Origin: Phycisphaeraceae bacterium D3-23
GTDB lineage: Bacteria; Planctomycetota; Phycisphaerae; Phycisphaerales; Phycisphaeraceae
DNA: 64,000 bases
Assembly: GCA_039555135.1 (NCBI GenBank)
Contig: CP114179.1
Span: forward strand, 1,364,001-1,428,000
Direction: 5' to 3'
Positions 8,973-27,436 of this stretch are shown piece after piece. The notes beneath the pieces are model-generated. The model was not told where the DNA came from. It made no database searches and saw only the letters and a list, made by a program, of their open reading frames with translations. The position numbers and the translations under genes are program-made. Within the stretch, counting starts at the first letter, position 1; each line of letters starts with the position of its first letter.

Positions 8973-8980
8973 TTCGGAGT

Positions 8981-9015
8981 TTTTAACCGCAGAGGCGCGG
9001 AGGACGCGGAGGAAG
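8981..9015. repeat. Left inverted array of the HNH cargo locus
   Basis: Degenerate tandem 9-mers of the form GCAGAGGCGCGGAGGACGC, starting TTTTAACCGC and ending GGAGGAAG. An inverted copy lies at 9938-9987, immediately after the HNH stop codon. Confidence 0.85.
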
Positions 9016-9079
9016 ACAAGGCTCCTTCCCGAACTCTTACGTTCATCGTTCGCAATCATCCTAAACTAATGGAAGCGTA

Positions 9080-9937
9080 ATGAGCATTAGCAAATTTTAT
9101 CAGGAGACCTTGGGGGCCAATCTCAGCAATTCGAGATGGTCATGGGGCGCGACAAATCCGACAACAAACCAGTTATTCTTACGGGTTTGGGAGGATGAGA
9201 TTAGAGTCTTGAATGGCCAAGAATGCATTCTAATCCTTGGCTGGAAAGGTAAGAAAAAATCACATGGGTACCCTGAACGGGAGCAGCATGTCGAAGACAT
9301 GAAAAACGGAGTAGACAGCTACGGCGTCATCTGTACTGCAAAAGACCCCCAAGCATCGGGTAGCCGGACAATAACAAGTTTTGATCATGATGAGCTTCTT
9401 AGATTCGGCGAACTCATCTACGACAATGATAGAGTCTATGCGTCCATCGTCGGGAGAGTATCCGTCAATCATGTAGCGCGCAAGCAAACATCACAAAGCA
9501 CACTCTTACCTGACATGAAGGCGATCTTATCGAAATCAGGGAAGACCACAAAGGACGCGCTTGCCAAAGCGCGGATCGGGCAGGGTGTTTTTCGGGCCAA
9601 TGTACTTGATATGTGGGACTCTAAGTGTTGCGTAACAGGAATCTGTACTCCCGACGCCATCCGAGCATCGCACATAAAACCATGGCGCAATTCAACCGAT
9701 AGTGAACGCCTTGACCCATTGAACGGACTACCATTGGTAGCCACACTTGATGCACTATTCGATTCGGGATTGATTACATTTTCAGATGATGGCCAACTCT
9801 TGATTTCACCTCTTTTGCCTCCTGCTGATGTCAATCTCCTGGGACTGGCTGGCCTGCGCCTTCGTGATGCCCCGAACACATCAACACAACAATTTCTAAC
9901 CTATCATCGCGATACAATTTTTGTGTCGAAAATTTGA
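9080..9937 (+). CDS. HNH endonuclease (HNH_2-like), low-GC cargo gene
   Basis: 285 residues. The C-terminal third contains an HNH_2-type nuclease site: CCVTGICTPDAIRASHIKPW, then LDPLNGLPLVATLDALFD, matching the Cys-x-x-T-G ... A-S-H-I-x-P-W ... N-G-L-x-L ... D-x-L-F-D pattern of restriction-like HNH proteins. The N-terminal 150 residues show no family I recognise. Base composition is clearly AT-richer than pheS or the peptidase on either side. GGAAG precedes the ATG at normal distance. The gene is enclosed by inverted arrays at 8981-9015 and 9938-9987. Likely a DNA nuclease with defence or mobile-element function; no methyltransferase lies nearby. Confidence 0.85.
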   Translation: MSISKFYQETLGANLSNSRWSWGATNPTTNQLFLRVWEDEIRVLNGQECILILGWKGKKKSHGYPEREQHVEDMKNGVDSYGVICTAKDPQASGSRTITSFDHDELLRFGELIYDNDRVYASIVGRVSVNHVARKQTSQSTLLPDMKAILSKSGKTTKDALAKARIGQGVFRANVLDMWDSKCCVTGICTPDAIRASHIKPWRNSTDSERLDPLNGLPLVATLDALFDSGLITFSDDGQLLISPLLPPADVNLLGLAGLRLRDAPNTSTQQFLTYHRDTIFVSKI

Positions 9938-9987
9938 CTGCCTTCCTCCGCGCCCTCTGCGTCCTCTGCGTCCTCTGCGGTAAAAAC
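9938..9987. repeat. Right inverted array of the HNH cargo locus
   Basis: Starts at the base after the HNH stop codon. On the minus strand it reads ACCGCAGAGGACGCAGAGG repeated and ends in GCGGAGGAAGGCAG, the same unit and same inward end as 8981-9015. Confidence 0.85.
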
Positions 9988-9994
9988 CTCCCCC

Positions 9995-15429: not shown

Positions 15430-15499
15430 GAGTAGCCACAGATTTCACAGATTGCGCCGATTCTAAATCTGTGTCGATCTGTGAAATCTGTGGCTACTC
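15430..15499. repeat. Palindrome with 23-bp perfect arms ('CACAGATTTCACAGAT' type)
   Basis: Arms 15430-15452 and 15477-15499 are exact reverse complements (AGCCACAGATTTCACAGAT). It lies 10 bases after the HTH gene and can form a strong hairpin. A half-copy (ATCTGTGAAATCTGTGG) occurs near 27350, beside another repeat array. Confidence 0.9.
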
Positions 15500-25717: not shown

Positions 25718-25742
25718 CCCCCGGAAGTTTTGCAAGGCAGGA

Positions 25743-25780
25743 TTGAACCACGAAGACACGAAGGGCACGAAGGAAGGCAG
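25743..25780. repeat. Left inverted array (CACGAAGGA type) of the three-gene patch
   Basis: TTGAACCACGAAGACACGAA then GGGCACGAAGGAAGGCAG. The inverted partner is at 27378-27413; the inward end GGAAGGCAG is shared with other arrays here. Confidence 0.85.
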
Positions 25781-25797
25781 AGCAAGCGAACGGTAGG

Positions 25798-25817
25798 ACA
25801 GGCATTCCTGCCTGTCA
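25798..25817. repeat. Palindrome GACAGGCATTCCTGCCTGTC
   Basis: GACAGGCA-TTCC-TGCCTGTC, with 8-bp stems. It resembles the core of the element inserted in scpA (53726-53788). Confidence 0.65.
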
Positions 25818-25859
25818 TTCGGCGCAGCCGAGGTCATGGACTCTCCAGAAAGGAACCCG

Positions 25860-26165
25860 ATGCCAGAGCCACATCTTGACAAACTATACGCCTACTATCC
25901 AAACATCATTGATCTGATGCCTGATCGTTTTAGCAGCCACGAATTCATCGAGCGGCTCTTTCAGCAACATCAGGCTGACTTCATTGATGCACTTTACAAG
26001 TATCGCAGCTTAGACGCACCTGTTCGATCACTTACTGCGCCTCTATCCAAACAACTGCACAACCACCCCCGTCTTGTCCAATATGATGGCCACGAACAAA
26101 GCAAGAACTTGTTTTCTGATGAAGGCCAGTGCGCAGTCTGGGTCAGAAAAAAACAAGCATCATGA
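25860..26165 (+). CDS. Small hypothetical protein, low-GC cargo
   Basis: 101 residues. AAGGAA precedes the ATG at 25860. Key stretch: MPDRFSSHEFIERLFQQHQA, DFIDALYKY, then LSKQLHNHPRLVQYDGHEQS and CAVWVRKKQ. This 'H-E-F-I ... L-Y-x-Y ... H-x-x-L-x-x-L-V' layout recurs in short bacterial proteins of unknown function and looks like a small helical, possibly winged-helix, domain. No signal or membrane segment. The AT-rich composition differs from the flanking genome. First gene of the patch enclosed by arrays at 25743 and 27378. Confidence 0.7.
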   Translation: MPEPHLDKLYAYYPNIIDLMPDRFSSHEFIERLFQQHQADFIDALYKYRSLDAPVRSLTAPLSKQLHNHPRLVQYDGHEQSKNLFSDEGQCAVWVRKKQAS

Positions 26166-26247
26166 TCGTGCAGTTGACGCAAGAGAAAGGTTGGACTGGG
26201 CTAAGACCAAAACAAAATATGGGCGTTTCTTCTGAAAGTCTCCCGTC

Positions 26248-26595
26248 ATGACAGATTGTGTTCACTGCCAAATGCCTGTCGATCCAAATGCAGAGATCTG
26301 TCCCTATTGCGGCAATCCGCATCCAGCCATCCGCTCACCTCTTGGGCCTGCACCTCAACAAAAAACGCCGGAAGATGCTACTGGTGATGTTGTCGTAGTT
26401 GCTCTTGCGGCATGGGTCTTTGCATTTTGCCCATTCACCTGCATCGTCTCAATCGTCTGTTGCTACCTCATTATGCAATGGCACAAAGACGCTCGACATC
26501 TCAATTTAGCTCATTTTTTTATCATTGGTGGCGCATTCGTAGCCACGGCAGTATCTATATTTTACATGGTGGCGTGGTTATGGCCCACACCATAA
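26248..26595 (+). CDS. Zinc-ribbon membrane protein, low-GC cargo
   Basis: 115 residues. The N-terminus is a zinc ribbon (DCVHCQMPVDPNAEICPYCG, two C-x2-C knuckles), followed by a Pro-rich linker and two membrane helices (VVVVALAAWVFAFCPFTCIV and FFIIGGAFVATAVSIFYMVA). Such ribbon-plus-membrane proteins are common and mostly uncharacterised. Base composition and size match the neighbouring cargo gene at 25860, with an 82-base gap and no clear terminator between, so they may be co-transcribed. Confidence 0.75.
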   Translation: MTDCVHCQMPVDPNAEICPYCGNPHPAIRSPLGPAPQQKTPEDATGDVVVVALAAWVFAFCPFTCIVSIVCCYLIMQWHKDARHLNLAHFFIIGGAFVATAVSIFYMVAWLWPTP

Positions 26596-26611
26596 TGGCT
26601 TCGGCGGGTAG

Positions 26612-26752
26612 CGGCGGATGGCCGGGGTGGAGCGAGTCCGCGAGTGACCCCCCGGAACGGGACACTTGGTCCTTGATGCGATGTGCAGTGCAGTCACCCA
26701 ACCCGCGTCTTTCCCCGGGGGCTCGCGGACTCGACCCCGGCCACCAGCCGCC
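26612..26752. repeat. Imperfect inverted repeat with CGAGTCCGCGAG / CTCGCGGACTCG ends
   Basis: Arms of about 32 bases at 26612-26644 and 26722-26752 (GGCCGGGGT... CGAGTCCGCGAG). The interior has CCCCGGAACGGGACAC. A relative with CCCCGGAACGGGAGG and TTCGCGGACTCAGCCCCGGC lies at 27216-27330; the pair brackets the gene at 26760. Confidence 0.7.
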
Positions 26753-26759
26753 CTATCAA

Positions 26760-27182
26760 TCATATCCTCGCCATCAATTCCGCGTTTGAGAGATTCGCTT
26801 CGGCTTCAAGCATAGCAGTGTAGTCGGGACTGTCGCCGGGATCGTGATCGATCATTGCCGCCAAGGCCTTTCGGTACTCGTCGAATCCCTCCCGTCGCCC
26901 AACGCTGCCGGAGTAATACCAGATCAATCCTAGCAGGATGATGCCGACGTACCATGGCAGCCAGCTATAGAAATAGATGCTGCCGGCCGTCAACAAACCA
27001 AAAGCAAACGCGATTCTATGCTGTGCTTTTCGTGCTCTGAGATAAGATTCGGGTAGATGCATCGCCGCCACTCCTTCGCCGAACTTGGGCAGGATCAATC
27101 TTGCCACAGTCATGCAACGATCGCAGAAAGTGGAGTAGGTGAAGTATAGAGCCCCAAAAATCAGAAAAGCGATTTCGCCCAT
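26760..27182 (-). CDS. Hypothetical membrane protein, cargo
   Basis: 140 residues. A hydrophobic N-terminus (AFLIFGALYFTYSTFC), then two closely spaced helices (AFAFGLLTAGSIYFYSWL and YVGIILLGLIWYYSGSV), then an acidic soluble tail of about 45 residues. No family recognised. It lies between two related inverted repeats (26612-26752 and 27216-27330) and inside the larger array pair. The AT-rich composition sets it apart from the chromosomal genes around it. Confidence 0.7.
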   Translation of the reverse strand: MGEIAFLIFGALYFTYSTFCDRCMTVARLILPKFGEGVAAMHLPESYLRARKAQHRIAFAFGLLTAGSIYFYSWLPWYVGIILLGLIWYYSGSVGRREGFDEYRKALAAMIDHDPGDSPDYTAMLEAEANLSNAELMARI

Positions 27183-27215
27183 ATCCAGATTGTACCCTAC
27201 CGGCGAGTGACAGCG

Positions 27216-27330
27216 GGCAGCGGGTGGCAGGGGCAGGGGCTTGGCGATGCCCCGGAACGGGAGGCGAGGAACATCGTCGCCGGGGGCGCGCTGCGGGGCT
27301 TCGCGGACTCAGCCCCGGCCACCCACTGCC
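27216..27330. repeat. Second copy of the CCCCGGAACGGGA inverted repeat
   Basis: Diverged relative of 26612-26752. With the array at 27378-27413 and the palindrome at 27437-27509 it accounts for the gap 27183-27491, in which I see no gene. Confidence 0.6.
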
Positions 27331-27377
27331 TCCTGCTCTCCATCTGCGCCATCTGTGAAATCTGTGGCGACTCCCCC

Positions 27378-27413
27378 GCCTTCCTCCGTGCCCTCCGCGT
27401 CTTCGTGGTTCAA
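27378..27413. repeat. Right inverted array (CACGAAGGA type) of the three-gene patch
   Basis: On the minus strand TTGAACCACGAAGACGCGGA then GGGCACGGAGGAAGGC, partner of 25743-25780. A half-copy of the CACAGATTTCACAGAT repeat lies just before it near 27350. Confidence 0.85.
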
Positions 27414-27436
27414 TCTGCCTGCCGGCGTTGCCCTCA

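Follow-up and report, generated by a model that had tools for sequence, protein, structure and literature searches.

Downstream of pheS, in a stretch of 64,000 nucleotides from the genome of Phycisphaeraceae bacterium D3-23 (contig CP114179.1; hereafter the window), an AT-rich HNH nuclease gene (9080-9937, plus strand) is enclosed by inverted arrays of CGCAGAGGA-like units. This raises the question whether the enclosed gene is the cargo of a mobile element and, if so, which enzyme would move it. Inverted-repeat and unit searches delimit a left arm (8976-9018, plus strand), made of TTTTTAACC followed by three units of 8-9 nt at 8988-8995 (CGCAGAGG), 8996-9003 and 9005-9012 (CGCGGAGG), and a right arm (9939-9991, minus strand), made of four units, then GGTAAAAACC. 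The units of the right arm are read on the minus strand at 9972-9979, 9963-9970 and 9954-9961 (CGCAGAGG) and at 9945-9952 (CGCGGAGG). The arms match each other in inverted orientation over 20 nt at 90% identity (8976-8995 with 9972-9991) and over 23 nt at 87% (8996-9018 with 9939-9961); the entire block, 8976-9991, is the span of this match, and its ends are approximate. The first-pass annotation had the right array begin at the base after the HNH stop, which is close: the last base of the stop codon is 9937 and the first of the inverted arm 9939. It had also described the enclosed gene as AT-richer than its surroundings. The GC content between the arrays is indeed 0.472, against 0.647 for the window, and ranks second lowest among 631 windows of equal size; the interior of the block is foreign in base composition.

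Units that are short and purine-rich could be ascribed to chance or to simple low-complexity repeats. However, when up to three mismatches are allowed, CGCAGAGGNCGCAGAGG has 12 matches in the window for 2.0 expected, a number reached in none of 100 shuffles, and a stricter two-unit pattern, with four matches in the window, all within the two arrays of the HNH block, is absent from 60 first-order Markov windows. At the scale of the class, the strict pattern ACCGCAGAGGNCGCAGAG is present in 24 of 198 genomes and its reversed control in none of them. The shuffle, simulation and reversed-pattern counts refute chance, which retains a negligible probability, and the presence of inverted arrays of one 9-mer series around the HNH gene, as initially proposed, is confirmed beyond shuffles and Markov windows. 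A CRISPR array was also ruled out: the units are 8 nt long and 0-1 nt apart, with no unique spacers. Two further elements are found in the window. A near-perfect, cargo-free palindrome of 60 nt (15435-15494), of the CCACAGATTTCACAGAT dialect and of the same element class, lies between two genes. A second cargo-bearing block (25741-27415) has nearly identical 36-nt arms of CACGAAG type, with a CCACAGATTTCACAGAT array within the right one. Between the arms lie three small open reading frames, one of which gives a weak zinc-ribbon match; they are richer in AT than the surroundings, the GC content being 0.542 for the interior and 0.617 and 0.699 for the flanks. Cargo is therefore not unique to the HNH locus.

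The HNH gene encodes a protein of 285 amino acids with an HNH_2 domain (PF13391, E 1.4e-10) and gives a PADLOC HNH match (6.2e-31). The C-terminal half of the protein (residues 154-281) matches PDB 6YEX (E 3.8e-21). The latter entry is VcaM4I, an EVE-HNH modification-dependent endonuclease in which, according to the domain description in the corresponding paper, EVE spans residues 1-147, a linker 148-178 and HNH 179-309 (PMC7897488). The window protein resembles VcaM4I in its HNH domain and, as far as that description goes, in its length layout. In its N-terminal half, Pfam gave no match to EVE or to another PUA domain. Because this half is unassigned, a modification-dependent restriction function can be proposed as putative, from the domain matches. 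A single-sequence fold prediction gave a pLDDT of 33, too low to be used, and no viral relative of the HNH protein was confirmed. As the only gene of the block, and one encoding a nuclease, the HNH gene might itself specify the driver, namely a homing-type nuclease recognising the two arrays. Nevertheless, a 50%-identical HNH gene is found in the congener G017 at a different location and has no arrays, and, throughout, these arrays are found without an HNH gene. Moreover, bracketing at HNH_2 loci does not exceed that of controls (median 11.0 versus 11.3; 29 of 30 loci usable), in a test that is weaker here because the domain lies within the gene. With 29 loci not above control, HNH_2 genes were rejected as habitual array cargo, and we consider it very improbable that the HNH enzyme drives the block.

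The first-pass annotation suggested that the block had been inserted between pheS and pheT and that the pheS downstream region should be compared in relatives. In this comparison, which included a few relatives with less than 1.5 kb of DNA downstream of pheS, the window's own locus is the only one of 30 in the family with the HNH gene or the arrays; all 29 relatives lack both. The genes located 3' of pheS vary from one relative to another (SAICAR synthetase, urocanase and pirin in three cases assigned with Pfam), and a pheT-like gene directly after pheS was seen at none of the relatives' loci read. Insertion into a pheS-pheT pair is thus not borne out, since the absence of pheT at this place appears, as far as seen, to be the normal gene order of the family. 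In the closest relative, G019, pheS is 91% identical and is followed by a urocanase gene. Because the genes after pheS differ in this nearest relative, there is no clean empty site for the HNH block.

A search for other array pairs in the genome, also suggested initially, did find further ones. Inverted pairs of the HNH-block unit are present in this 4.62-Mb genome at 1922998-1923460 (E2), enclosing a frame of 117 codons for which no Pfam family was found, and at 3865741-3865985 (E3) and 4234952-4235159 (E4), with interiors that contain CACAGAT-type arrays and no gene. For each of these CGCAGAGG pairs, both flanks match one contiguous stretch of G019 without the element (C9:267625-268173, C13:120991-121513 and C21:72734-73228 for E2, E3 and E4, respectively). 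The absence at these three sister sites indicates that the array class is mobile. The spacers at the G019 sites have diverged too far for exact ends or a target duplication to be read, and neither of these, nor a circular form, was seen for array elements. The view of the HNH block as a cassette without its own transposase is supported, the arrays being dispersed, patchy and in inverted pairs, with three out of three other pairs missing in the closest relative.

Both within this genome and in other phyla, more arrays of this kind are found, most of them gene-free palindromes. A 30-base version of the array was found in 10 stretches, in records of Bipolaricaulota, Angelobacter, Desulfobacterales and Chloracidobacterium, and the array is also present in 75 stretches of viral contigs and on Gemmatirosa plasmids. 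Among the 56 array loci that could be examined, out of 57 fetched, 27 have an inverted partner at most 1.5 kb away, versus 4 in the direct-orientation control. Paired loci have interiors of 16-438 nt, except for a single one of 1,097 nt. On one viral contig, several small phage genes each lie inside inverted CGCAGAG/CACAAAG arrays, in a cassette-like manner (L122 and L129).

The trail of the array pairs led to GxxExxY, a small PD-(D/E)XK nuclease (PF13366), which, rather than HNH, is the usual gene inside such arrays. Bracketing was measured to test the expectation that GxxExxY genes have such neighbours. GxxExxY genes occur in 97 of the 150 class genomes examined, and all 27 aligned proteins share D72, E82, K84 and Q96, which we take to be the PD-(D/E)XK catalytic site. 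The sample comprised 105 loci (30 + 60 + 3 + 12 by source), of which 101 had full flanks: 90 (30 + 60) were taken from the best-scoring class matches listed and 3 from the genome of the window. An inverted flank match score of at least 15 was obtained at 85 of these 101 loci, a set biased towards arrays by the 12 loci from genomes found through arrays, whereas none of the 54 control loci reached it and, of the mismatched flank pairs, 34 of 401 did; the median scores were 22.8, 10.1 and 10.0, respectively. The control loci, 54 long enough out of 60, came from pheS and kbl queries, and some of the kbl ones are paralogues. When 12 low-scoring GxxExxY loci were read by eye, several still had two-sided arrays (e.g., L384, L385, L403 and L404). 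A direct-orientation score of at least 15 is also reached by 24 of the 101 loci, because some contain several palindromes. At L214, L221, L429 and L431, the GxxExxY genes are located in multi-palindrome stacks with CGGCAA-type repeats in between.

Array dialects at GxxExxY loci include CGCAGAG, CACAGAG, CGCCAAG, CACGAAG, CACAGAT, CGCTGAT, ATGAAG and ACAGGAT. Outside the class, a clear bracket was read at four of eight GxxExxY matches in plasmid records, from Gemmatirosa, Bernardetia (imperfect), Bacteroides and Sphingomonas; none was clearly visible at the matches from Prevotella, Persicobacter, Fusobacteria and Treponema. On the Sphingomonas parapaucimobilis plasmid (L451), the GxxExxY gene and its CGCGAAG arrays lie between annotated fabD and fabG, which normally form a tight operon. 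No viral relative of the one GxxExxY protein searched was confirmed. An open-access search found almost no literature on GxxExxY (PF13366/TIGR04256), no description of its association with arrays in open papers (subscription papers and NCBI family notes lay outside its scope) and, for the array strings, chance or unrelated matches only.

Are the arrays related to the protein that they enclose? After loci scoring below 16 were dropped, 83 of the 101 GxxExxY loci were kept; the best arm period is 9 or 10 in 58 of them. Array similarity and GxxExxY similarity are correlated over these 83 loci (r 0.42, 0 of 999 permutations), and they remain so for pairs from different families (r 0.36, 3126 pairs, 0 of 1999 permutations) and within single genomes (r 0.69, 40 pairs). 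Among different-family pairs, similar arrays become more frequent as protein similarity increases: 6% of 643 pairs at the low end have them, and 62% of 16 pairs at the high end. The corresponding values are r 0.03 for the DNA just inside the arms (125 of 999 permutations), r 0.11 for the DNA just outside (0 of 999) and r 0.18 for the 40 bases that precede the matched gene and, in some loci, overlap the array (0 of 999). Across bacterial families, similarity of array dialect thus goes with similarity of the GxxExxY protein, whereas adjacent DNA follows the protein hardly or not at all. Linked DNA that is simply inherited together would not retain similar arms next to randomised sequence, whereas recognition by the protein would have this effect. 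The covariation would also be unexpected if GxxExxY were merely a frequent passenger of palindromes moved by a Y1 (IS200/REP-type) transposase or by another unrelated enzyme. Three Y1 genes do exist in the genome of the window, and the dispersed palindromes are REPIN-like in layout. However, arrays are present at none of the three Y1 loci, so that a Y1 transposase was ruled out as the bracketed gene, and we consider movement by such enzymes improbable.

The dialects of this particular genome add a constraint. Its four GxxExxY loci have CGCCAAG (two loci), CACGAAG and ACAGGAT arrays, and in none of the four do the arrays follow the CGCAGAGG dialect seen at the HNH block. By contrast, the congener G019 has a GxxExxY gene whose arrays share this dialect (L228). 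If GxxExxY does drive these elements, the HNH block would have been moved by a nuclease now gone, or by one tolerating a foreign dialect. Across genomes, the dispersed array was found in 4 of 16 genomes with a CGCAGAG-dialect GxxExxY versus 2 of 34 without (Fisher p 0.07; rank test p 0.025), which links the two weakly.

Other observations concern possible changes in place. In the tdh-kbl spacer (genes assigned by reading the sequence), four of five congeners have an array, with four different units (L290-L293, L309): a GxxExxY element with CGCCAAGG arms in G000 (C1:3414529-3414873) and, at the same place, palindromes of the CACAGAG, CGCCAAG and CACGGAT types in G016, G017 and G018, respectively. 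In G019, the spacer is 127 bp long and has no such arrays; it carries further array types in G033 and G045, and is short and array-free in G035, G047, G048 and G050. Different dialects in one congener spacer are unexpected from plain transposition. Moreover, phage contigs that are 91.5% identical over 2,404 bases have common arms and a different loop, and one dialect is nested inside another in E3, E4 and G045. Taken together, the dialect differences in the spacer, the differing loops and the nesting suggest that arrays are replaced where they already stood, or converted in situ. In the related phage contigs L093 and L147, AACTCGC and CTCCGTG array units, respectively, stand at matching intergenic places.

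Such changes invite another explanation, in which the arrays are intergenic hairpins with a local role, for instance in mRNA stability or DNA structure, that change by slippage, template switching or gene conversion. The HNH gene would then have arrived by ordinary horizontal transfer, and GxxExxY would be linked to the arrays for a regulatory reason. This would agree with a palindrome kept between the same two genes in most congeners while its units differ, with the phages that keep the arms and vary the loops, and with the gene-free state of most array pairs. It does not predict the covariation of arrays with GxxExxY across families, the patchy distribution of the strict pattern, or the absence of whole pairs at three congener sites. 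We therefore hold a purely local role to be unlikely, though less so than the involvement of a Y1 or HNH driver.

The kinship of the HNH block with the GxxExxY loci follows from architecture and dialect. In the explanation that we favour by a modest degree, the block at 8976-9991 carries cargo, is non-autonomous and belongs to an undescribed family of array-ended elements, for which GxxExxY is the probable driver in trans. The inverted arrays at the ends consist of some three units each, repeated every 9-10 bp, and the usual gene is GxxExxY. The nuclease would recognise the arrays, or a hairpin or cruciform formed by the two arms, cut at the arrays and thereby move or copy the DNA in between. 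A short loop is all that most copies retain, and some carry a gene, here the HNH nuclease; recognition, cutting and movement in trans are what we infer for GxxExxY. The observations that count against this explanation are the other dialects of the genome's own GxxExxY loci, the unbracketed HNH family, the weak link across genomes, the different dialects in one spacer, the direct-orientation matches, and the fact that no exact end, target duplication or circular form was seen. A broader proposal, advanced with more reserve and for which the odds are a little under even, is that GxxExxY and its arrays constitute an undescribed class of minimal mobile elements, present in several phyla, in which each nuclease reads its own dialect, seeds and reshapes palindromes and mobilises enclosed genes, including the HNH passenger of the window. 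Array recognition by GxxExxY, if true, would explain many unannotated palindromic repeats. Since array ends can enclose a restriction-like gene, as in the window, they may also help to spread defence genes.

How do these elements compare with known systems? GxxExxY loci (TIGR04256/PF13366, PDDEXK_3) share with the HNH block a gene enclosed by inverted short-unit arrays. The block differs in enclosing an HNH_2 gene and no GxxExxY gene, and its dialect is that of L228 in G019, unlike the four loci of its own genome. Because the enclosed gene is HNH_2, the block is grouped with these loci as no more than a non-autonomous relative that has the same type of ends. With MITEs and TIR transposons, array elements have in common inverted ends, short gene-free copies and absence at orthologous sites, and terminal inverted repeats are present in the HNH block. 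They differ in that no transposase is found inside and that the interiors of the copies read are unlike each other, rather than derived from an autonomous element. There is also a likeness in layout to REPIN/RAYT (TnpA-REP) systems, where a small nuclease gene is flanked by a repeat that is also dispersed as gene-free palindromes. There, the enzyme is of the Y1/HUH type, whereas GxxExxY is a PD-(D/E)XK nuclease and the ends are arrays of 9-10 bp units. If the proposed recognition is true, GxxExxY would be a PD-(D/E)XK counterpart to REPIN/RAYT.
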